From Terfezia claveryi (Eukaryota > Ascomycota > Pezizomycetes > Pezizales > Pezizaceae), in contig WHUX01000126.1 of NCBI GenBank assembly GCA_015179025.1, forward strand, positions 1 to 64,000: a stretch of 64,000 nt of DNA, written 5' to 3'. Positions 23,997 through 39,411 of the stretch are shown here, in pieces. The notes beneath the pieces were generated by a model. The model did not search any database. It was not told where the DNA came from and worked only from the letters and a program-made list of their open reading frames with translations. The position numbers were made by a program, and so were the translations under genes. The stretch's first letter is position 1, and each line of letters begins with the position of its first letter.

Positions 23997-24856
23997 CATC
24001 AGGAAAAAAAAATATTCGTCCGGACATGAGTTTGCGTCCTGTATGTCCTGTGCGTCTAGACGCACTAACGTTGCCCCCTCTCCTGTGACACAACACCAAT
24101 ACTGGGCAGTTGCTCTTGCATCTAGACGTATTGGAACATTGCCCCTTCGCTTGAGACATAACACCAATGCTGGGCAGTTGATCTCACATCTGAGATGTAC
24201 TGGGATGTTGCCCCCATGATTGGGACGCAAGCATATATGCAACCTTTGTCCCAATGCACTTAGTGGGTAAACACAACCCGCTTACAGCTTGCATCTGCTA
24301 CGTTCTTACACCAGCTAAGTATGTAGCCAGGTTTGCAACCTTTGAATATGCATGCAGCAGAAACATTCATTGTATTCACCAATTATTATATACACAAAAA
24401 GGTATTTAGCAATAGATATGTACATGGAACATGTGTGCAGCAACACTTGCTTTAACCCTTAGCCTAAGCTTCACTCTAACTCTCGTTGTATCCATTGCTC
24501 TAACTCTTGCTCTACCAACCAGACTACTCTCGCTCTAATGCTCACTCTAATTCTCGCTCTAATGCTCTCTTTCATACTCACTGTAATATACTGAGAATAA
24601 TGAGCAAAGGAAAAAAGCACAGAGAAGGGAAATATATATACAGGAAAACCATAGTTGCCAAGGCCAACTGCTAAGGCCAATAATTTAAACTTTCTGAAGA
24701 CAATGAGATAGGGGATAATAAGAGAAGTGGCACGAAAGTGATCAACGGCGCTCAGCCCCCCTTTTGCATGCAGGTGCCATACTACTCAATGCCTGGCCTG
24801 GTAATAGTCATCATGGGAAATCGTAGTCGTGGTATTGAGATATGTACAGAGTTCAC
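23997..24856 (+). repeat. CATCAGC fold-back repeat, left arm (copy a)
   Basis: It begins CATCAGGAAAAAAAAATATT after a TA dinucleotide. It contains GACGC/GTCTAGACGC words, a 12-bp repeat zone (CTCGCTCTAATG) at 24470-24600, and the block TTGCCAAGGCCAACTGC...GCTCAGC. It is matched in inverted orientation by 38398-39411 and directly by 63120-64000. The shared terminus with the Plavaka element suggests it was moved by that transposase family. It is cut by the 13.1-kb element at 24866. Confidence 0.75.
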
Positions 24857-24865
24857 ACTTTGTGA

Positions 24866-25020
24866 TGTTTTCGTACCAAGACTCTAGGTATCTGTCGCAA
24901 AATAATTATTTCTGCTACACCAGCTAAGAGTCTGGTAGTAAACACCTCCGAAATTGACTCTAATTCAGCTCCGAATCTAGAGATGTTAGCATGGAATTGG
25001 AGATACTAGTATGGAACTAT
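24866..25020 (+). repeat. Left terminal inverted repeat of the 13.1-kb element
   Basis: After TGTTTTCGTACC come GACTCTAGG, AGAGTCTGGTAGTAAACACC and repeated TCCGAAAT/GGAGAT(A)CTAG words. The order matches the right end read from 37963. Identity is patchy beyond the first 25 bp, as expected for a decayed copy. Confidence 0.75.
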
Positions 25021-25307
25021 ATTTGACGCTTAAAGCATATGATCTAAAGCTTATTTTGTATTAAGAAACAAAACAAAATATCACCATTCAATGTTCTTAT
25101 GCCTATCGTACAAAATTTATTTTTGCCATTGATGAGTGAGCTGACCAGAGTAACTACAGTGACATACAGGAGGGCACAGAATAACCATATACGTATGATA
25201 CATACTTGAGGGAGATGCCTGTATAACCCTTTGCTAGGGCCCTACCGATTCTGGGGGGTGATGCTACAAGAGGCACATTAACTGAATCTTAGGAACTGAA
25301 GGTACTA
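25021..25307. other. Leader region of the DUF6589-like gene; no separate gene seen
   Basis: The region is AT-rich with no recognised motif. It should hold the promoter of the plus-strand gene, and perhaps its first codons, since no convincing ATG precedes 25308 in frame. Confidence 0.35.
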
Positions 25308-28300
25308 GTGGTGCTGAAGGTGATACTGTCCAATAGCATAGATCTAGCCTTATTCTTTGAGCGGGTGATGATCACTAAGTTAAAAAAGATCCGGGAGAAG
25401 AAGGAAACTTTCTTTGAAAACGACAGCTTCAAAAAGGTATTCGAAGGAATGTTACCACAAATGAGCTTTAACTTCACTAAAAAACAAAACTCAAGTGCTA
25501 CCATCCTAATATTAAAACAGGCCCTAGGTGTTGGCCTATAGAGAGTAGTTCAGCAGGTCCTGGAGTTGGAGATGAAAACATATGTCAGGGATGCAGACAC
25601 CAGAATGCCAGCACAATCTTTAAGTCCCATCATAGCTACAGAGTTTGAGTTAGAAAATTTAGGCAAAAAATTCGATGAATATTGCCCACGATTAAGCAAT
25701 ATTATTAGAGGGATTTGTCTATGGAGTGAAAGTCAGAACAATTCTTGCAAAAAGAGGAAAAGAGGCAAGCCTAGGATTGGTTAACGTTAGAATTTTCGGG
25801 ACAAAAACTTAGTCATGATAATGGCTATGAGTATGATAGCCTTTGAATACTCGCAGATATGTAACTGGCTTCTAACCCCATTTAGCTATTACTTCCAAGC
25901 ATGCGGGGTTGGGAAGAGAGTAATCAGTTTCCTAAATTATATAGGATTGAGTGTAACATATATAACTATTGGGGATGCAATGAAGGCTATTGGGAAGGTG
26001 AATGTAGAAAGGATATTAAAGAGGATTAAGGATAGTTGTCCATTCAGGTGGATGTGGAACAATAATACAATGTTTGAGAACAAAACTGGCCAGAGTGTAA
26101 AGAATCAGAAACTTCTGATACAGTATACATGTGCTGCTTTGTGGTTTCTAAATTTTCCATGCCCAATTGAGCCAAGTGGGGCGCGTCCAGTTTTAGATGC
26201 AGCTGGTGCCCAATTGACAGACATATCAGGTATGGAGGAAAACCAAATGCTAAAAGAGGAGTGGATAAAGTATGACAAGGCAGAACAAATATATCAGGGG
26301 CTAAAGGATTATAAAAAGGGCAAGCCTAGAATGAAGGGACAGTTGCTATTTTGTGACAAGCCTGATTATAGTAGAATTGATGAAATATAGTTGCTGTCCA
26401 AGGACTCCTATGTGAAATATATGCCAGGTCGAGTGCTGGTACATTTGAGTGATATATTATGGAAGCACTTCGAAACTATGCTGTCTGAGTGGTTGAAGAG
26501 GAATCCAAGTGTGATCAAGCCATCATTTGATAGTATCTATAAGATAGCTCCAGTTAAAATGGATATTCATGCATTGGAAACAATGGAGTTAGATAAAACA
26601 TCTATCTCTGGGAGTGCTGAGATTATCGAGGCCTTGTTAAAAGATGCTAGACTAACGGGTCAGGATTTGAATAGAAGAATTGTTCTACATGTGGGAGACT
26701 TTGGAATCATGCTTAAGGTAGGTACTTTAAGGTGCAATATCAGGGAAATTGCTAGTCGTGGCATAGGAGTCTGTTGGATTTGGCTAATCTGTATAGATGG
26801 TAGTGCTCAAGAAATTGCGTATCAGAGATTTTGAGCATAATCGTCTAAACTTCCTAGAGAGATTGGATAGTATATTCCATTTAGAGATGGCTGCTGAGGA
26901 TTTGCTCTTTAGGGGATATTGCGGACATGAGGATGGCATGGATGTTGGATCCTTATGTCATTTGAAGTATGTGCTTGGGTCAAAAGGTGTAAGTGCGAAT
27001 ATGCCTGAATACAATACGTGAAAATACTTCTCAGGTATTTGTGGAGAAGGGTATATGCTAGCAGCCGTGGCTACAGAATTAGGAGTAAGTGTATGTGTTG
27101 ATGTGTTAATATTATAGGTAGGTGGTTGACTGTGGTGATCTTAAGGTAGAAGATTATGAAGATATGTCAGCCAAATTGTAAGACGTGGGAAGCTATGTGA
27201 ATGTCTATACCTCTATCATCCAGAAACTGTTTGTCCCGAGGGCTATGTGAGTGATAAGGGAAAAGGCGGAGCTGAATGCTTTCTGGGAGTGGTGTAATAT
27301 GTTGAAACTTAAAAAGAGAAAGAAGGATTGGATTGGTGATGAACTTAACTACAACTAATTTATTAAAAATTGGGTGTACTGGGAGAGAAATTTAGTATAT
27401 GAAAACTATCTGTTATATTTGCAGCATTATTTCGTAGTTCGGGATTTGTATTACAATGTGAGGTATGTATTTTGTTTTCATGCTTTGTATATTCCAATAC
27501 AGGCAGATGGCTGATAATATGAGATATAGTGCTAGTGATTCAGGGGGCCTTTTAAAAAATATTGAACCCCTGTATATATGGTTTGCAGGTGGTGGGAAAC
27601 ACTATTATGTAAAAGTAATGGCGAATTTATTGATTGAGAATGAGGTTGTCTAGACAGATAGGTTCAGATATATATGGCTCAATAACATCCTAGTAAACCT
27701 GAGTAGTCGAGAGGGAAAGTTTATAGGTATTGACAAAGTAAATGAGTTGGTGGTTCAAAAGGTGAAAGATCAACATAATGTGAACAGAAATTGGCAAAGT
27801 AAGGATTTTTTCTTAAAATCAGTATCCCGGAATGCTTTTTTGTTTAATAATATCAAGGAGATGGTAAATCGAAGTGCTCGTAAGTAGTCTATTGCAGATT
27901 ATTGAATTGACTGTGAATTGACTTAACTGTGTTTCAGGAGTTTCGGACTTGACAACCAAGTATGTCTTTGTAGATGATAAGGAGGATGCGCGGCTCATGA
28001 TGAGATGTCTATTACAAAATAATGTTGTGCGGTTTCGGAAGGGTCGATAGATAGGTGGCTCGGAGCATAATCCAATAGAGGTGAAGCTGGCATTAGACTT
28101 CTTTATAGTAGGTGAAAATGTGGTTACACGAGGGAAATTTCTAGATGACTTAATGAGTGAGTGCTTGGGTGGGAATACGGATGGAGACGGAGATTCAGAA
28201 AGTACGGAGGACCGAGAGTTGAGTGAAGTGGAAGAGTGGTGGAAAAAGGAACAAGAGAATTTTGAAGAGAATTTTGAAGAGAATATGGAGGTATGGGTAG

Positions 28301-28539
28301 ACAATGATTTGGTGGTGGGGAATAATAGGGGAAGTGGTGAAGGAGATGAAGTTGATAAGGAGGATGAAGGAGAAATAGAGTATGGGGATATAGTATATGA
28401 TCTAACATATAAGGAAAAAAGTGCGTGGCATGAGGGAGGAAGCTTTGAGGTGAATGAAGGTGAGGAGTCTATGGATGAGTATGGAGGAGATGATGGTTGG
28501 GTATTGGAGGATAGTGATAGTCAAGCAGGAGATGACTAA
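25308..28539 (+). pseudogene. DUF6589-like putative transposase gene
   Basis: This looks like the main transposition-type protein of the 13.1-kb element. The family is widespread in mushrooms and of unproven activity. In frame, with a few stops (for example near 25540 and 26388), are an N-terminal helical region, then MIMAMSMIAFEYSQICNWLL, GKRVISFLNYIGLSVTY, a FRWMWNNNTMFEN segment in place of the usual YDN, RRIVLHVGDFGIML, and IFHLEMAAEDLLFRGYCG. The C-terminal mark is YIWFAGGGKHYYVKVMANLL, then LVNLSSREGKFIGIDKVNEL. Likely introns are 27085-27117, 27463-27502 (GTATGT..ATACAG) and 27880-27937 (GTAAGT, CTTAAC, TTTCAG). The last ~150 residues are strongly acidic (ESTEDRELSEVEEWW and onward). 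The true start lies upstream or is lost. Confidence 0.65.
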
Positions 28540-28714
28540 AGATCTGGCATAAAGGGGATGGGAAATATTTGTGATTTAGCAATAGATGTTGTTATGAGCA
28601 TGTATTATTCACTAGACCATAGTACGAAACATCCCTATTAGATTAAATATGAGGCAAACTGGTATATTACAAGCAAAGGGGATTAGTGATACATTGAAAA
28701 AGCTGAGATAATCA
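28540..28714. other. Space between converging genes
   Basis: This is 175 bp between the ends of the DUF6589-like and RecQ-like genes. It likely holds both 3' untranslated regions. No terminator structure is evident. Confidence 0.35.
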
Positions 28715-31096
28715 TTAGTGAGTGGGCTGAGAGTCAGCAGGCTGAGGTTCAAGTGCTGAGTTCACTTGAGGGCGAGGGCCTCGTTTAATACCTTTGTCAG
28801 AACGGACTTTTCGAGGCTTAGGAGGTAGATATGGGGGTAGCTGGACTAGTGGGCATTGCCTGGAAGTAATATTGGAGTCATTGGTAAGTTCAGTCAATGC
28901 AGGTTGGGGTACTATAGATTGTGGAGGTGGAGGAGGCATGGCAGCTAGGTGTTAGTCCCATATTGTTGTAATAACTTCATCGAAAACTTTGTTGATCATG
29001 GTGAGCTTGACATCTCTATCATATCTGGATTCTTTTTGTTAATAGCTTTGGAGACATATTCAGGTGTCTTAATGGATGCCGAATAGGCAACAATAAAATT
29101 AATCTCCTTTTGGTTTAATAAAACGCCTGGCAAGTAGGAACAAAATCTTTTGGTTCTGCCTATGCCTCACTATTGAGCACTGCACAATTGAGTCAGATTC
29201 TGCCGCAGTGCATCCTTGAGGTCCTGTGGAAGAGGGGTGATAGTTTTTGTAGGGCAGATGCTTTGTGAGGGCGGCATCAGTTTTGATGGGATCAAGGCTC
29301 TGATCTCAGGGGGAATTTGCATTCCCATGCATAGATCGCAACAAAGATAGCCAGTCGAGAGCATAGGGCATTCCCCAAGATATTTTAAAATAATCTGTTG
29401 ATGGCATTTATTTGTGTTTACAAAGGATAAAACGGCCCTGCAAACTAATGGCAAAGATTTGCTCACTTTGCATTTATGGGAAACTTGTATTTTATTGATA
29501 TTGTATATATTTAGTGCATTTTCGACACTGGTAGGATCCTGATTCGAGTTTGCGCTGGTCTCCTTGGGCATCAACTCAGAGAATTACTTTGAGATCACAA
29601 GTTTGGTGGCTTTTGGGTTCCCAGCATCCATAGATTCAGCTTTTCTCTTAAGCCCATATCCAGCAGTCAGAGTCTCCAAACTCATATCAAATCTGACTAT
29701 ATCTTGCGCTACTGTGCTTTAATTGGGATGGTCCCATGCACAAGTATAAATTTGTACCTCGGAGGTGTGTTCTCTACTAATTTCAGTATAGGAAGTATAG
29801 AAGAGTATTCCAATGCCCTGAATATCTTGTCGACGTGCTACTCGCCCGAAACGCTGGTAGAGTGAACTTAAGTTGCAGTATTGGGATAGACGCCATTGTA
29901 CTACCCTTTCAATATCCGGGATATCTAAGCCCATTCCATATACATCTGTACAAACCAAAATCCTGCAATTACCTTCAATAAATTGTTTGAGATTATAAGC
30001 TCTACGTTCTGTGGTAATTCCAGTTGAATATTCGAGTATTGCCTTAGGATTATGTTCAAATACATTGCGGGGTAAAAATCTAGCCAATTTGGTAGTGATT
30101 TGACAACACTCCTTTAAACTATTTGTAAATATCATGGTTTTCTGGATTTCCTGTCCATAGTCTGATTTCATTGACTTAGGCAACAGAAACTTCAGGTCTT
30201 CATAGGATTCCAGATTGCCGTAGATGGCTCAAGCGATTAGGCATACATTTTCACGGTTCACCGAACGCTAGATCAAAGCACAATTTTTTTGAAACCATAA
30301 AGTTATGTGGATAAATCCCCGAACATGAAGTGGAATGGTTGCAAATTGTGCCATGAAAGCTATCTTGGGGAAACATATTCGTAACAAACCCAAGTTGGTG
30401 TAGTCTGCACGAAATGTGTGCCTGTGGTATATAAGTTAGTATTAGATACCCTAAGAATGAGGAGACTTTTATCAACTGACTACTGATGACACAAGTGAGC
30501 CACATCGATTACGAATCCCAATAGACGCTTGGTAAAAATTTGGGATTTTGATAGACATTGAAATACTAGATGATTAACCTTCAAGAGTTTGGGGCAAACG
30601 AAAATGAATTGATAATAGCCTGACATTGCCTTGTTGACCAAAGTAGTATCTTCGGCCAGGCTTTTTGCATTTATTACATACGCCTTAATCCCATACCTCT
30701 TTGCAGTCTCCAGCTATAGAACTATTAGCTATGCACATAATAGAGCAATATGAATACATATATAACAATTTTTCAATGAGATTAGAGGCATCACCACCAT
30801 TATAGTTCTGTCCATCACTGCCAACGCTGCTAAGAGGAAACAGAATGTTTTGCCATCCCCAGTTCTTGTGATAATTAACTGATCTTTCCCTTCTAGTAAG
30901 CATGCTGCTGCTTCGATTTGCTATCCAATAACCCTTAGGGTGACATCTAGAGCTAGAGCTGTTTGCTTGGCCACCTCTACTATCTTTGCTCTTAGTTGAT
31001 CCAGTGGATATATCTCACTCTCTAGCATCTCCGAAATTATGAATAAGCCTTTACCAGTGAGTTGAAGTAAGAGTTCTTTGTTGTCTTGAGCAGCCA
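28715..31096 (-). pseudogene. RecQ-like DNA helicase gene of the 13.1-kb element
   Basis: This superfamily 2 helicase starts at 31096 (MAAQDNKELLLQLTGKGLF). Motif I reads TRTGDGKT, where RecQ proteins have PTGGGKS. Motif II reads FVIDVAH, so the catalytic Glu of DEAH is Val. Then come SYEDLKFLLPKSMKSD, TMIFTNSL, ILVCTDVYGMGLDIPDIERV (motif V) and YQRFGRVARR (motif VI). A Zn-binding region ends CHQQIILKYLGECP..CCDLC, as in RecQ proteins. The proline-rich tail PPPPPQSIVPQPALTEL closes near 28715. Frame stops (a TAG before motif I, others between 30250 and 30550) and the lost Glu show this copy is dead. It converges on the DUF6589-like gene. Confidence 0.8.
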
Positions 31097-31381
31097 TTAC
31101 TCCTCTGAGAGTCTCTGGAGTTGTTTTTGGTAAATCGCAGCTGTTCTATGAGGACGAACTGTAAAGAAAATCCTTATCGTGTAAGGGACAATACTGAGAA
31201 ATTTATTGTCATTTCAGTGTGGAGAATTTTAATTACTTGCGATACAGATGATTCCCTAAATAAGATCTGACATGAAATATTCAAACTGGATAATATATAT
31301 TCAAACTGTATAAAAATATTATAGTTTGGGCATACAATGAGATCTAATTTTCCTAAATAAAACCTAAATAATAACTAAAAA
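31097..31381. other. RecQ upstream region; no gene seen
   Basis: This is the promoter-side gap of the minus-strand helicase gene, AT-rich between 31200 and 31380. The MITE at 31382 is inserted at its distal end. Confidence 0.35.
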
Positions 31382-31629
31382 CATCAGCAAGAAAAAAGTG
31401 GCATTGGGACGCCAGGTGGTGTCTCCAGGAGATAGGGTTGTCTTTTGTGTCTTTTGTGTCTTTTGTATCTCCTGAGTGTCTCCTGAGTGTCTTCTATGTG
31501 TCTTCTGGTGTCTCCCAGTGTCTCTAGGAGACACTAGGAGATATTCTGCCAATTGTGGAGACACATCTTGTCTCTAGTAGCATTACTGTCTCTAGAGATA
31601 CTGGAGACAAACTATTTTCTTTCCTGATG
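31382..31629. mobile_element. 248-bp MITE with CATCAGC ends (copy 1)
   Basis: It starts CATCAGCAAGAAAAAAGTGG and ends TTTTCTTTCCTGATG, with AA duplicated on each side. Internally it has GTGTCTCC/GGAGACAC repeats that can fold back (TCTCTAGGAGACACTAGGAGA). Copy 2 at 47655-47902 has exactly the same length and about 90% identity by eye. The ends match those of the Plavaka element, its likely source of transposase. Confidence 0.85.
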
Positions 31630-31703
31630 AATGCAAAATATACGAACTAAAAAGATAACAAACTAAGAACCCTGTTCACAACCTTCCACATGGTACCCTG
31701 CTC

Positions 31704-32861
31704 TTATTCGGAGTCACTTATGACAATTGGTTCCACTCTCATTGCTTTGAGTAAATCCTATAGGATTTCTAATGCTAGGTTGGTATCCTTCCTTTCTTCG
31801 CCTCCGAATAATGCGTTGGCTACATACTCAATCTTCAATGCCTTATCCTTTTCTTTCTCTGAAACTACTGCTCATTTAAGTTCTCCAATTCGTTCATCTA
31901 TATCCAGGTTTTCAGCCATAAACCTTAACTGAAATTTCTTTTTCTTTTCGCCATCTTGTGTCCTCCTTCGCTTGATAGGGCTTTCGTTTGTTATGGTAAT
32001 TTTAGAAGCCTGGCCTCTAGCTGCCCCACTGCCCGCCCGACTGCCCACCCTACTGCCCGCCCCACTGCCTGCCCCACTGTCTGCGCTACTGCCTGCCCCA
32101 CTGCCCACGCCACTGCCTGCCCCACTGCCTGCTGCTCTGCCACCAGCTCCACTAGATACTTTGCTAGGTGGTGCGCTAGCTGATGAGCTGCTAGAATTGG
32201 TACCTGGTGCGATGCCTACTTTATCAGAGCCCTCAATGTATTGTACTTTCTTGCCTTTTTATCTACTCTTTTCGATAGCAGCTTAATTCGCAATATCCCT
32301 CAGCATAAGGTGGGGGTTCTTTTTGGTCTTTTTGGTATACATATGGAGGTCAATGCGCTCCTTGAAGTATTTCGTTTCAGCGGAGATGTTAAGGTTTTCC
32401 TCTGCATATTTAGCAAAAAGTTACAAGAACTTTTCAGCGGGAAAGGGAGACATAATATCCTCAAGTTTGTCTTCCCAGTCAATACACCAAGCAGCAGTAA
32501 GCCTCCCATGCAAAATGGCCTTTCTAACCTCACTCTGTGTGTGCTGGGTAGCCAGGGGAGTTAATGTTTCTAAAAGCTGAAATGCCTGTTCAGCTTCTTG
32601 CCTTGTCTTTTCTATTTCTTCACAATCTTGGTCTGTGCATGCTTCAAGGTGCTTTTAGAGTGCATAGGCTGCATGGGATAATTCCTCTCCTGTAACTCAA
32701 ACATGTTCAAAAACTTTCTCCATTAGAACCCATCGTCTCAGTCCTTTATGCTTGGCCCATTGGGTTTTTATTTCGGCATCTAATGTTTGGGCATTTTAGA
32801 TGATTCGGTTTGTTGCATTTTCGATCCTTGTGAGTTGCTGACTCATTAAGGGGGTAGACAT
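31704..32861 (-). pseudogene. Unknown protein gene C of the 13.1-kb element
   Basis: The product is not recognised, 385 codons from ATG 32861 (MSTPLMSQQLTRIENATN) to the stop at 31704, in one frame with about seven internal stops. The N-terminal half is helical and charged, with KTQWAKHKGLRRWVLMEKV and LHGRLTAAWCIDWEDKLEDI. A low-complexity linker of Gly/Ala/Ser (about 50 residues near 32160-32000) follows. Next is a basic nuclear-localisation-like patch, PIKRRRTQDGEKKKK. The last residues, EPIVISDSE, fit a SUMO-interacting motif with acidic/phospho-serine tail. It may act in the nucleus with the element's other products; that is inferred from these motifs. Confidence 0.5.
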
Positions 32862-32895
32862 TAGAGGAAATATTTATGTAATATGAGATATTGGT

Positions 32896-33410
32896 TTATG
32901 GGTAGAGGTGATTTCTTAGGAAAGTCAGTGTGATGTATAGAGGTGATTTCTTAGGAAAGTCAGTGTGAAGCTGTAGTATGGGGATAAGAAGAGGGGAAGT
33001 ATAACTTCCTTTTAAAATACTTCCAACTTTGGCCAACTCGTTTGCCCTAAAATATGCTTTAGCCCACTTGTTTGCCCTAGAATATGCGTTGGCCCACTCG
33101 TTGGCCAACTCCATCACCTGCGACATAGGTGATGCAATGATGCCTGCAATGAACCTGAATATTGTCTCCTCCAGCCATCACCTGCGATGCAGGTGATACA
33201 ATTATGACCATCTATTGTCTCCTCCAGCTATCACCTGTGATGTAGGTGATGCAATCATGACCATCTATTGTCTCTTCCAGCCTCAATTGTCTCCTCTAGC
33301 TATTACCTGCAACGCAGGTGATGCAATATGCCTGAATATTGTCTCCTCCAGCCATCACCTGTAATGCAGGTAATGCAATGAACCTAGATATTGTCAACTA
33401 TTCTCACTAT
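32896..33410. repeat. Array of palindromic ATCACCTGC / GCAGGTGAT units
   Basis: Five units between 33111 and 33380 each carry ATCACCTGC, a 3-nt spacer (GAC, GAT, AAC or similar) and GCAGGTGAT or a near copy. They are separated by GCAATGATGCC...TATTGTCTCCTCCAGC. Each unit is a small hairpin with CACCTG/CAGGTG boxes. Upstream, 33010-33110 has GTTTGCCCTAAAATATGC repeats, and 32896-32990 a direct repeat of GAGGTGATTTCTTAGGAAAG. The array sits between genes C and D and could bind an element or host protein. Confidence 0.65.
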
Positions 33411-34135
33411 CCACTTCACCTTACCATATACCTCACTCATTCTGTTCCGAATTGATGTGGAAGAATCAGATTTCTACTAGAGCAAAGGCCCAAAGTTATT
33501 GAAGCCCAAGAAAAAATCTCCAGAAGGGAGCTCCATCTCCGGACCTTCTTTAATTATTTTGGAGATATATATAGTTGATATGATGAGAACTAAAGAGGGT
33601 CAATAATGGACAATGCCAAGAATTTTATGAACCTAGTGTGCCAACTTAGACATCCACTTCACCTTACCATATACCTCACTTATTCTGCTCCGAATTGATA
33701 AGGAAGAATTTGAATTCTGCTAGAGCAAAGGTCCAAAGTTATTGAAGCCCAAGAAAAGATCTCCAGAAGAGAGCTCCATCTCCAGACCTTTTTTGATTGT
33801 TTCAGAGATATATATAGTTGATATGATGAGAACTAAAGAGGGTCAATAATGGACAATGCCAGGAATTTTATGAACCTAGCATGCCAACTTAGACATCCAC
33901 TTCACCTTACCATATATCTCTCTCATTCTACTCTGAATTGATGAAAAAGAATCAAATTTCTGCTGGAGCAAAGGCCCAAAGTTATTGAAGCACAAGAAAA
34001 GATCTCCAGAAGAGTGCTCCATCTCCGGACCTTTTTTGATTGTTTTGGAGATATATATAGTTGATATAATGAGAACTAAAGAGGGCACAAGAACATAAGA
34101 CCTGGTGCTGAACATTCATTCAAAGCAATTAATTC
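33411..34135 (-). repeat. Three tandem copies of a 243-bp, 81-codon unit
   Basis: CCACTTCACCTTACCATATA starts copies at 33411, 33654 and 33897, an exact 243-bp period. On the minus strand the frame repeats: SGDLFLGFNNFGPLL followed by YGKVKWMSKLA in each unit, with stops (CAG/CAA-type positions) in all three. The last unit (34115-33876) still has an open 79-codon frame starting MFSTRSYVLVPS. This may be a repeat-bearing exon belonging with gene D, or an expanded relic. No family recognised. Confidence 0.65.
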
Positions 34136-34238
34136 GTCGTTCTAGCTATCTAACAACCTGATCTCATGCCCTTCTAACCTTATCATTTTCCTCTATACAT
34201 TACCCTCATAACTATTCCCTGGGCAGTTAAAACCAGAG

Positions 34239-35405
34239 CTATTGTGCTAGGATAAGATTATCATCCTCTATGGTGTCATTATTCCAATTTGTAGCTAGTC
34301 TCTTAGCATGCTCTAATAACTTCTTCTTTGAGTCTGCCTTTGGCTCCAGCTTCCCATTGCCTTCTCCCCTACCCTTTAAATTATTCTCAATATTTGGATC
34401 AGTCCCAACCTTATCCTCCATGTTAACCCTCATACTAGCTAATGACTCCCTCACTCTCTTACTACCTCTTTCCTTAACCGGCTCTACATTCCCAATATCT
34501 TCCTCTAGATTTTGTTCTACTACCTGAACCAATGCATCTACCTCTATTATCACCATATCTTTTACTCCTGCAACTTTTATCACACTTTTGGCATTGACTG
34601 CCTCCAGAAGTGGTGATACACCCACCGGTTCTGATCTCATCATCCCAGACTCCACACTTTCAGCCCTACTCATAGCACCTACTTCAGCCCTCACTACTTG
34701 CTCCTTAGCCGTATTTACATGCTTTATATTCTCCATTATCAGGGAGCTAGGGCTGTCCGAACCACCCCAAGCTCCAAACCCAGCCGGATTTTGAAAACCG
34801 TCTACTGGGATCTTGTACATAGGGCTTTGCCAATTTCTAGTGTAATACCCTATGCCGACAGGATTAATTGGACCACTTGTACTACCATGACTAAAACCCT
34901 CATAAAGACCCATCCCGGAAACACTCATCCCTGAACCACCCATCCCCGGACCACCCATCCCCGGACCACCCATCTCCATCCCACTCATTCCCATCCCACC
35001 CATCCCCATCCCACACATCCCCGAACTACCCATCTCCAAACCATCCATTCTTGGACTACCTATTCCTAGACCACCTATTCCCAGACTACTCATTCCCGGA
35101 CCACCCATTCCTGGAGCACCCATCCCTGGACCACTCATCCCTCCCTACCCACCACCTTCACCATACCACCCATAAGGCATCCAAGAACCATCCCACCCCC
35201 CATGTATTAGCATTGCATACTTATGCTAATATCCTCCCCTAGGAGCACCTCTTCTAAATCCTTGACCTATGGATCCAGTTGCTTGTGCATTCCTCTTAAT
35301 TACATTATTGCCCATGATATTTTTCGAAAGGTCTTGCTCCTCCACTTATATCCTAAGTACTTTAAGTGAAACCCCTTCATCACTAGGTATATTTTTTTTC
35401 GGCAT
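34239..35405 (-). pseudogene. Unknown protein gene D with GGPGM-type repeats
   Basis: 388 codons from ATG 35405 (MPKKNIPSDEGVSLKVLRI) to 34239 in one frame, with stops at three points before residue 90. Residues ~90-155 are short Gly-Met repeats (GMGGPGM, GMSGMEM and variants), an aggregation-prone low-complexity tract. Then come YYTRNWQSPMYKIPVDGFQN and a charged C-terminal half ending in KKLLEHAKRLATNWNNDTI and EDDNLILAQ. The 300-codon part from 35138 is open. No domain recognised. Such tracts occur in RNA-binding and structural proteins, but no RNA-binding motif was seen. Confidence 0.5.
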
Positions 35406-35441
35406 TATCAAAGATAGCTATTTCCTAACAACTATTTGACC

Positions 35442-37592
35442 TCACGGAGTTTCTTGACTCCGACATGAAGTAACCTGATCCCCTCCTCCTTTCTGTGGAG
35501 TCATTTTCTGTGGTGTACTTGGTATTGGTTTTTTAGACAAGGTCTCAAAGGTGATTCCCTTTTTTAGTAATGCTGGTTTCTTATTTGTCTCCAAACCCAC
35601 ACACTTCTTAATCCAACTCAAAGCTCTAACTTCTTCAACCTCTAGATCTGAATTGGTTTCTGATTCTTGTAAAGCTTTTTCCTCATCTACTGAGCTTGAC
35701 ATCCCCCTTTTTCTCAAATCTACCTCCACTAAGGTATCCCTCAAATTCCTTTTCTCCCGTTTTGTTTCTTCAACCTGTTTATCCAACTCCTTTTATATCA
35801 CATTCTAGCGTTTGGCTGCTTGAATTGCTGCTGCAGCTTTTTTCCGACAATCATCGGCCACCCTCTTTTTTCTCTTTTTTTTCTTCTCCCACAATATACA
35901 TAACTCATTATACCTGGTACGAAGCTCAGTAGAGGCATATGCTGACCAACGAGATATCCTATGTGATCCCAACAGTGAAATTCGGATTGCCTCCTCTGTA
36001 ACATAACTATTCTCTCACATTAGCACAACATACTCAATAGCAATACACTTTATGCACCACTTACTCTGCTATCTATAATTCGGTAAGACGGGGCTGCACC
36101 AATTTGGTAATCCTATTATCCAACTCCTAATCCTCACAAACTTCTCTTTTGATATACACAAACTGTGTCTGTGTCACCAGGCCTACTTGAATCATAAATT
36201 CCTCACCGGTAATGCCTCTTGACAACACTGTCAACCACTCATTCCCCAACTCTATTGTTAATTCAGGAATATCACCTATAGCTTCTAAATCAAATCCTCC
36301 CACCTCTTTCCCAACTCCATCTTCATGCTCCACTTCCCTTACTTCAACTAATTTCTCTACAGTTTTACTCCCCCTATCCTCCTGCTCCAAATATCATTCC
36401 TTCCCCTTTTCATTTTCCATATTTACTTCATCCCTATCACCCTTTCCTTCACTCACCTCCATCTCCGCTTGTTTACCCCCCCAATTGTCAACTTTTGCTC
36501 CATCAATTTCAATTACTTTGATATCTATTTCATCACTAGCTTTATTCTATCTCACTCTATTTTCAGAAATTTCCCCTACTCCATTTTTAGGCTCCCTCAA
36601 CTTCTCTACTTTAATACCCATATCATGACTTTCATTCAACAACTTTTCTTCCAATCTTTCAACTATATCAGTGTAATAGCAATGAAACTCATGAAGATCA
36701 TAATTTAAGTCCAACTGCTCCCAAGCCTGAGTATTTCTCAGATGCTCAGCCTTCCTCAAGAAAGGTGGCCAGTCCTTACTGTTCCCTAAACATGTTGCAT
36801 TGAACACTTTCAGGCGCAAGGCATTACTCAAAACTCATTTACTAGTCCTTCTAATACACAAGATCATGATGAAACGAACAAAGATCGCCAAAGCAGACAC
36901 TTGTAATTCTTGATAGAAAGTTATCAGTGCATTAGATATTCCTTTTATACTTCCAGCCATTGTCTACATAATAGGATCTGTGACAAATATAATAGGATAC
37001 CAAATACTGTATTATTCCTTATTCATGAATTCAAACCATTTCTCTACCTCTATAATCGATAGTCTCTGCAGAGCGACCCTTTTACCTCTTGCCTCCCGAA
37101 GCTCATATTGGAATACCACCCCCTTAGACTCTTGAACCCATAATTGAAACAACTTTAGAAACATCCCACAAAAAGTATTTTGTAGTTTAGAGATATAACC
37201 CTTCAAAGTCTCTACTTCGCCAGCTACATCCATTACCCCCTCTTTTGTAGGCCACATACAATTCAAAGTTGCTTCCAAAAAAACAGATTCCAGTTTCGGA
37301 CTTTCAAGAATCCATATGCAGCCACCCAATATAATTTGCCTCGAAATTCTTTTAGGGTCTATAGATACAGTTAGTATCATATAATCAAATTAAATCAAAT
37401 CATAATAGCACTTATAGTACACCCACTCATTAGCTCAATAATTTGTTTTGGCCACCATTTTTGAACATCGGTAGACAGGAAAGGTTCCCATACCCCATCC
37501 AGGTTTACAGTCCCATCTACTTCAATGATAGAAAGCTCTTGGATTTTGCCCTGTTTATTCCTTGAGACCCAGCCGATCGGGAGGTTTTGCAC
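35442..37592 (-). pseudogene. Unknown protein gene E of the 13.1-kb element
   Basis: A long minus-strand gene of about 650 codons, not recognised. The first part (37592-37395) has MQNLPIGWVSRNKQGKIQ and LSIIEVDGTVNLDG. A probable intron with TACTAAC branch leads to GGCIWILESPKLESVFLEA. The same frame then runs to 36120 with stops at 37012 and elsewhere, including CLGNSKDWPPFLRKAEHLRN and EWLTVLSRGITGEEFMIQVG. An intron at 36007-36064 (GTAAGT, GCTAAT, AATAG) joins in phase to YVTEEAIRISLLGSHRISRW and a basic coiled-coil region (CILWEKKKKRKKRVADDCRK), ending RSQETP at 35442. The LSIIEV motif occurs twice. It is the outermost gene next to the right terminal repeat. Confidence 0.5.
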
Positions 37593-37784
37593 TTAACTGA
37601 AGCCATCAAAGACATCGCAGTGGGTAGGGATTGGCTGAGCTAAAAAGAACCACTAAGACAGAAGAGAGCTAGAGAGCTATACAGGGGTGATATTTTGTTC
37701 AGGGTGAATGGGATTGCCACTATTGATTACTTTGGCGGAGGGCTTGTGCCCACCAGACTATGACTAGTTGATTACACATCGCAA

Positions 37785-37963
37785 ATGCGCTAGCACCTCT
37801 GGAACCACGCTAACATCTCCGAAACTCACGCTAGCATCTCCGAAAATCTTGGCACCGGAGATGATTTCGGAGATGATTTCGGAGGTGTATAGTCCCAGAC
37901 ACTCTTCTGATTAAATCGCAGAAGCGAATGCCAAGATCAGGCTAGAGTCTGGGTACGAGAACA
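37785..37963 (-). repeat. Right terminal inverted repeat of the 13.1-kb element
   Basis: Read inward from 37963: TGTTCTCGTACCCAGACTCT, then TATACACCTCCGAAATCATC and further ATCTCCGAAA / GCTAGC words. The CATCTCCGAAA motif recurs about five times between 37790 and 37900, as subterminal binding sites would. The 190 bp between gene E and this repeat have no recognised content. Confidence 0.75.
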
Positions 37964-37972
37964 GCTTTGTGA

Positions 37973-38397
37973 TATGTTTCGTAGGAATTCATGCATTCGC
38001 GGGCATATATATATATATATAAGTGCGAGAAACTCGTGCTTGTGGAGACATATATATATATATACCAGAAATCCATGCATTCGCAGGCTTATATATATAT
38101 ATATGTGCGAGAAACTCGTGCTTTTGGAGACATAGAGAAATGCATGCATTCGCGGGCATATATATATATATGTGCGAGAAACTCGTGCTTTTGGAGACTT
38201 ATATATATATGTGCGGGAAACTCGTGCTTTTGGAGACTTATATATATATATATACGAAAAATCCATGCATTCGCGGGCTCATATATATATATATGCGAGA
38301 AATCCATGCATTCGCGGGCATATATATATATATGTGCGAGAAACTCGTGCTTTTGGAGACATATATATATAAGCCCGCGAATGCATGAATTCCTACG
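37973..38397. repeat. Palindromic minisatellite core of the fold-back repeat
   Basis: ATGTTTCGTAGGAATTCATG at 37974 is mirrored by CATGAATTCCTACGAAACAT ending at 38403. Between them are about nine units combining GCATTCGCGGGC with GCGAGAAACTCGTGCTTTTG and TATATA runs. This is the centre of the repeat whose arms are 23997-24856 and 38398-39411. Long frames on both strands here are repeat by-products. Confidence 0.75.
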
Positions 38398-39411
38398 AAA
38401 CATATCATGAACTCTGCACATATCTCAATACCACGACTACAATTTCCCAATATGACTATTACCAGGCCAGGCATTGAATAGTACGGCACCCGCGGGCGAA
38501 AGGGGGCTGAGCGCCATTGGTCACTGTCATGCCACTTCTCTTGTTATCCCTTATCTCATTGTCTTCGGAAAGTCTAAATTGTCGGCCTTAGCAGTCGGCC
38601 TTGGCAACTATGGTTTTCCTGTATATATACCTCCCTTCCCCGCGCATTTTCCCTTCGCTCTATATCCCAGCACATTATGGCGAGCATTAGAGCGAGTAAT
38701 AGAGCGAGTATGAGAGCGAGTATTGGAGCGAGTATTAGGGCAAGTATTAGAGCGAGTATTGGAGCGAGTATTAGAGCGAGTATTGGAGCGAGTATTGGAG
38801 CGAGTATTAGAGCAAGTATTAGAGCGAGTATTGGAGCGAGTATTAGAGCGAGTGTTACAGCGAGTGTTAGAGCGATTGAAGCAGCGAGTGCATGTTCTAT
38901 ATATATATCTATTACTCAATACTTCTGTGTAAATAATTATTAGCGAATACAATGGATATTTCAGCTGCGTGCATTTTCAATGGCTGCAATAGTGGCTACG
39001 TACCTGGCTGTTGTACATGCCAGTGGTGAGCGGGTGTGCATTGTATAAGAGAGCGATTGTGGGCTCTCCGTTAGCAACGCCAGCGGTATAACCTATAGCG
39101 TTGGGGACGAGCAGCCCGTTCCATGTTGCGTCCAAGAGGAGGGAGCATCTGTAAAGCGAATGTGTTGCGTCCCAGGCGTGGGAGCACACTTGTGTTGCGT
39201 CCTGGACGCGGGAACACCTGCGACGGGTGGGTGTTGCGTCCCAGGAGCTGGAGCACAGTGCGTTGCGTCCAAGGCGCGGGCGCCAGCTGCTGGTGCGTCC
39301 CGACGCAAGAGGAACAAGCATTGGCGTCCTGATCTTGAGTTTTCGTCCTGTGCGTCCTGTGCGTCCTGTTCGTCCGGACGCACAGGACGCAAACACGATT
39401 TCTTGCTGATG
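38398..39411 (-). repeat. CATCAGC fold-back repeat, right arm (copy b)
   Basis: This is inverted relative to copy a. It holds CTGAGCGCCATTGGTCACTG and the CCTTAGCAGTCGGCCTTGGC block. A (GAGCGAGTATTA)-type 12-bp repeat zone at 38680-38890 and GACGC-rich ends (39100-39395) follow, with the terminus TTTCTTGCTGATG at 39411 before TA. Both strands of the 12-bp zone are open (ASIRASIG or NTRSNTRS), without gene character. Confidence 0.75.

Follow-up and report, generated by a model that had tools for sequence, protein, structure and literature searches.

AcademH transposons are bounded by terminal inverted repeats (TIRs) and encode a RecQ-like helicase of superfamily 2 (SF2). The family was reportedly defined in Kojima 2020, Mob DNA 11:15. 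In the published accounts, AcademH has target-site duplications (TSDs) of 9 or 10 bp and AcademX of 3 or 4 bp, a difference tied to the possession of a helicase versus a nuclease (PMC10045372). AcademH is recorded there at low copy number in Basidiomycota, Ascomycota and Mucoromycota, and KolobokH and Helitrons are grouped with it as helicase-encoding transposons (PMC10799480). Further papers describe putative non-autonomous Academ elements as widespread in Marasmius oreades (PMC8290104) and list Academ among recently identified types (PMC12210899).

The window, the whole stretch of 64,000 nucleotides that was analysed, holds a transposon that shares several of these features. Like AcademH, it is bounded by TIRs (22 nt, 91% identity), encodes a helicase (Pfam families DEAD and Helicase_C, both above cut-off) and has a TSD of 9 bp, where the published accounts give 9 or 10 bp; both occur in fungi, with Basidiomycota among the recorded AcademH hosts. 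Across the genome, the TSDs of this family agree at 9/9 in 15 of 25 pairings of left and right ends and at 8/9 in three. With its TIRs, 9-bp TSDs, SF2 helicase and candidate transposase, the element fits AcademH, and by the published description membership is likely. We read the window unit, with good confidence, as a decayed autonomous-type copy of an AcademH-type cut-and-paste family in which DUF6589 would be the transposase. The preliminary description had known of no described family with this full layout, a claim that is not supported, as helicase-encoding fungal AcademH elements with TSDs of 9 or 10 bp have already been published.

Other known systems agree in part. AcademX would share the Academ superfamily, if the window transposase is Academ; it differs in its 3 or 4 bp TSD and its nuclease, where the window element has 9 bp and a helicase. 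No nuclease was matched by Pfam above cut-off among the 20 open frames of the element that were scanned as exon pieces. KolobokH and Helitrons, by the same accounts, are likewise helicase-encoding transposons. However, Kolobok duplicates TTAA, whereas the window family has TIRs and variable 9-bp TSDs, and Helitrons carry a PIF1-type helicase and are not known to duplicate their target, in contrast to the RecQ-like helicase, TIRs and 9-bp TSDs found here. Starships are also large fungal elements with multiple genes; their tyrosine recombinase, DUF3435, had no Pfam match among the 20 open frames scanned as exon pieces.

Borders and insertion site

The unit at 24866-37963 is one TIR-bounded transposon. 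Its borders, repeats and target site are as follows.

24866..37963, + strand: whole element, 13,098 bp (ends, TSD, empty sites, and collinear copies at C778, C792 and C313)
24857..24865: left TSD, ACTTTGTGA, one G>A away from GCTTTGTGA
37964..37972: right TSD, GCTTTGTGA
24866..24887, + strand: left TIR, starting TGTTTTCGTACC
37942..37963, - strand: right TIR
24927..24954, + strand: left subterminal inverted repeat, partner of 37876-37903
37876..37903, - strand: right subterminal inverted repeat, partner of 24927-24954
31382..31629: 248-bp insertion in the window copy, a gap at this point in the C778, C792 and C313 alignments
33409..34137: 243-bp unit present three times in tandem
38361..38463, - strand: unoccupied relative of the insertion site, in the other arm of the target repeat, with 7 bp missing from the junction

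The preliminary description had claimed inverted termini and a duplication of 8-9 bp, and both were found. Inside the TIRs lies the subterminal inverted pair, 28 nt long with 86% identity. For the empty-site search, both flanks of the window element were joined with one TSD copy between them. This query scored at 40 places among 567 candidates, a lower bound, and one of these is the window's own left flank. The remaining 39 places span the junction uninterrupted to the end of the query at 90-93% identity, and at all four of them that were read (C84 in L057, L079, L080, L081) GCTTTGTGA is present once. These single copies establish the TSD as 9 bp, with the left copy in the window altered by G>A.

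With at least 39 other genomic copies of the joined flank, the insertion target is an abundant repeat with inverted arms. As seen in the window (24600-24865 and 38361-38700), these arms flank an AT-rich core. Several copies of the target repeat face each other in pairs with less than 3 kb between them, among others on C534, C176, C143, C26, C214 and C8. An empty site had also been proposed in the opposite arm. The stretch at 38361-38463 is indeed related and unoccupied, but with 7 bp missing at the junction it falls short of an exact empty site.

Element genes and their recurrence

The genes of the element, in order along the window, are the following.

25542..28536, + strand: DUF6589 gene, several exons with stops, a pseudogene; exon bounds provisional (PF20231 matches, five-copy comparison)
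29173..31145, - strand: RecQ-like SF2 helicase gene, several exons; exon bounds provisional (Pfam, NCBIfam, PDB, other copies)
31875..32654, - strand: gene C, open frames whose tail is of low complexity; no Pfam match
34242..35144, - strand: 301-codon open frame with a Gly/Met-rich stretch from a 15-bp repeat
36130..37592, - strand: gene D/E, open frames, one probable gene that may extend to 34242

Pfam lists PF20231 (DUF6589) as a family of unknown function, and literature searches by the names DUF6589 and PF20231 returned nothing on it. Two exon pieces match the family above cut-off (1.2e-8 and 2.7e-9) and a third falls below it (2.1e-5). The candidate first catalytic Asp, at codon 26058-26060, is Asn in the window and part of DNN in all five other copies, the D-D-E assignment here coming from one weak alignment of two distant families. 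A PDB search with one DUF6589 piece gave no match up to E 1, and Pfam matched no other transposase among the 20 open frames of the element. DUF6589 is the probable DDE transposase of the element.

The helicase assignment draws on several sources. Helicase_C (4.7e-17) and DEAD (7.7e-8) lie above the Pfam cut-off and the RecQ zinc-binding domain (0.003) below it. The best NCBIfam family for two of the three window pieces is recQ_fam (1.8e-11 and 2.5e-8, which as scores of single exons lie below the whole-protein cut-off), as it is for two helicase pieces of a distant element on C235; the third window piece, 29173-29583, had no NCBIfam match. In PDB, the larger piece finds DEAD-box RNA helicases best (MSS116, 2.4e-8), with BLM behind (6.7e-6). 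The window helicase retains the Walker A motif TGDGKT, and its DEAH box reads DVAH; at this position C792 has DEAH and C313 and C778 have NEAH.

These two genes recur together across the genome. We assigned the 43 exon-wise DUF6589 matches to 22 loci and the 33 matches of helicase pieces to 27 loci. By this grouping, a RecQ-type match lies within 15 kb of 15 of the 22 DUF6589 loci, where uniform chance predicts 0.25, and at all 15 it is convergent, on the 3′ side of DUF6589; C154 has an additional helicase match on the opposite side. Four of the paired loci belong to the window family (C31, C778, C792 and C313) and eleven are more distant. At these eleven, the convergent-side helicase piece is 28-59% identical to that of the window, which indicates that the pairing is old and does not stem from a single recent capture. 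Seven loci had no RecQ match within 15 kb (C92, C117, C127, C325, C108, C784 and C224), among which C784 and C224 are truncated members of the window element's family. DUF6589 and the helicase are thus the core of a transposon type, given copies with TSDs, 18 of 25 end pairings at 8/9 or better, and convergent pairing at 15 of 22 loci. Together with the collinear copies described below, this bears out the earlier proposal that both are element genes.

The end motif TGTTYTCGTRCC, a 12-mer, occurs exactly 255 times in the genome, against 28 for a reversed control pattern. At the distant locus on C62, TGTTCTCGTACCC-GACT lies in right-end orientation 5.5 kb past the helicase; an exact pattern for the left end expected of that element gave none. 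Among the 100 of 255 motif places listed, C62 was the only hit near the distant DUF6589/RecQ contigs C6, C42, C62, C95, C135 and C151.

The remaining genes behave differently from each other, and neither gene C nor D/E matches a Pfam family above cut-off. One gene C frame has 58 genome matches, most of them away from element copies, and looks like part of a dispersed family. The gene C family has more than 50 dispersed matches, and one relative, at C38:10800-12500 (L078), lies in a long open frame that covers 465 codons of this stretch and that Pfam does not match. The frame at 37015-37389 matches only C778 and C792 of the window family and, at 33-37%, C154, C6, C151 and C42; that at 36550-36834 matches C778, C792, C151 and C154. 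In C151 the two matches fall inside one 310-codon frame, which makes D and E probably one gene.

C154, C6, C151 and C42 are all DUF6589/RecQ loci. There D/E lies on the DUF6589 strand, about 4.6-5.5 kb past the helicase match, whereas the window family has it on the other strand. D/E is a recurrent partner whose orientation is flipped between the window family and the four distant loci, and it is a candidate third element gene. It is not universal, being matched at seven of the 15 DUF6589/RecQ loci (three of the window family, four distant; C313 is cut within D/E), and its exon matches were absent at the distant loci C300, C235, C95, C268, C242, C62 and C135. The preliminary description had listed C, D and E as separate genes and had asked whether they recur together with DUF6589 and RecQ. 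The open frames on the minus strand are present and the DUF6589/RecQ pair recurs, with D/E at a subset of its loci; gene C matches mostly elsewhere, and D and E look like one gene.

Possible differences from the described AcademH elements are the D/E gene, gene C and the 13-kb size. DUF6589, the RecQ-like helicase and D/E could form a three-protein machine of an own fungal type, apart from AcademH or a distinct branch beside it, with the 'unknown' fungal DUF6589 proteins as its transposases; we regard this as unlikely. Also improbable is a separate superfamily, unrelated to Academ, that has converged on a helicase and 9-bp TSDs. Such a superfamily would accommodate the further recurrent gene at seven of 15 loci, and our comparison with Academ goes by the published description; against it, the helicase, the TSD length and the fungal occurrence all match AcademH as published.

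Copies, short units and decay

Beyond the window, the left 201 bp of the element has at least 40 genome matches and the right 201 bp at least 41. At other sites, too, the two termini flank this stretch with its order unchanged, and the single-element reading survives the refuting condition that the preliminary description had set for it. Complete collinear copies lie at C778:183530-209207 (25.7 kb; 9/9 TSD, GCGAGGAAG) and C792:131372-168033 (36.7 kb; 9/9 TSD, AACTATAGC), and a partial one on C313 is collinear as far as the contig end. Aligned blocks longer than 500 bp are about 81-91% identical.

The longer copies were considered as carriers of cargo, a reading that is not supported: the 25.7-kb and 36.7-kb copies consist of the common 13.1 kb plus inserted blocks (12.6 kb in C778; 8.9, 5.9, 6.1 and 2.6 kb in C792), and the C313 copy likewise has blocks of 6.2 kb and about 2 kb. 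The points of insertion differ among the three copies, and the aligned edges overlap by 3-9 bp at the C778 and C792 blocks, consistent with short target duplications; the 6.2-kb block of C313 showed no such overlap. With the extra length made up of inserted blocks whose positions vary from copy to copy, mostly edged by short duplications, the earlier 'large cargo-bearing element' is supported as a single TIR-bounded element but not as a carrier of cargo. The 12.6-kb block (C778:188603-201238, L044-L046) has the ends TAGTGTGTGCTAC... and ...GTAGTACATACTAG and a short duplication, gaatatg, and is perhaps another large DNA transposon.

Two truncated copies, at C784:47751 and C224:13738 (L041, L047), hold the left 2.7 kb of the element alone within the 30 kb read at each. 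They break off within 3 bp of each other, at window positions 27542-27545, and beyond the break their sequences are unlike one another. An exact second TSD copy was not found within the stretches read at either.

The 25 end pairings were made by hand from a subset of all end matches; a C156 unit was left out because no end motif was found at its left side. Beyond the pairings at 9/9 and 8/9 given above, one agreed at 7/9, one at 6/9 and five at lower values. Of 600 mismatched control pairings, three agreed at 9/9 and two at 7/9, with none at 8/9. The C562 and C235 units, which share one site, and the C379 left end, which entered two pairings, account for those at 9/9. The C562 and C235 units count as two of the 15 pairings at 9/9, with one identical site. 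These two stretches (C562:124-3392 and C235:312526-316255; L054, L056) have the same TSD and flanks, and their left end regions are about 97% alike, which reflects either segmental duplication or a second haplotype that was retained. As a unit, C379:311542-315686 was discarded, its duplication agreeing at just 1/9; the same left end and a right end at 334495 agree at 9/9, and the 23-kb unit that they bound (C379:311542-334495; TSD CCTTCGCAG) was partly read.

TSD-supported units range from 205 bp (C257) to the 36.7 kb of C792. Five short stretches were compared with the window element (C562, C379, C235, C84 and C778:100563-105834, with C379 lacking a TSD as paired), and they have only the ends in common with it, about 107-109 bp on the left and 137 bp on the right. 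These five have an interior in common with one another, and its many offset matches suggest tandem repeats. Facing 12-bp end motifs also occur 78-133 bp apart (C35:756-863, C79:212158-212264, C132:71706-71783 and C124:398987-399119), and these stretches are probable miniature elements of the window family.

That many end copies pair into short units, of which the five compared share only their ends with the window element, invites another explanation, in which a common non-autonomous family, or a MULE- or hAT-like element with TSDs of 8-9 bp, owns the ends and has captured DUF6589, the helicase and everything else as passengers. A TSD of 9 bp is indeed possible for MULEs. We nevertheless consider capture very improbable, as DUF6589 and RecQ are paired at 15 of 22 loci, eleven of which are more distant than copies in the window family, and the 20 open frames contain no Pfam match to another transposase. 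A chance origin of the ends and the duplication around host genes of one fixed locus is refuted: the same unit lies at several sites whose flanks differ and whose TSDs are perfect, and there are unoccupied sites as well.

The window copy has decayed. Of its 380 private changes, counted wherever three or more other copies align and share the same base, 268 are C>T or G>A, and the same bias is seen in C778 (417/507), C792 (278/325), C313 (198/303), C784 (63/68) and C224 (54/61). It is what cytosine methylation or RIP-like mutation would give. Stop codons break the frames of the window copy. Given these stops, the loss of the candidate catalytic Asp, the broken DEAH box and the C>T decay, this copy is dead, without working proteins. 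A test of third-codon-position selection between copies gave no consistent excess, and a search of viral contigs gave no match.

Proposed mechanism and implications

The ends and target duplications are observed features, and to them the following catalytic roles may be assigned. DUF6589, as the putative DDE transposase, would bind the TGTTYTCGTRCC ends, excise the element and join it to the target by cuts staggered by 9 bp. Its tail-to-tail neighbour, the RecQ-like helicase, may unwind the ends or assist in completing the gapped product. An accessory role in transposition would fall to the D/E protein, gene C is possibly a passenger or accessory, and the short units would be mobilised in trans.

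Most likely, the element type has already been described, as AcademH. The main value of the locus lies in flagging DUF6589 as a transposase and D/E as a possible third element gene. If DUF6589 genes are shown to be transposon genes with a helicase partner, this would offer a handle on the role of RecQ-type helicases in DNA transposition, and fungal gene counts would need correcting.
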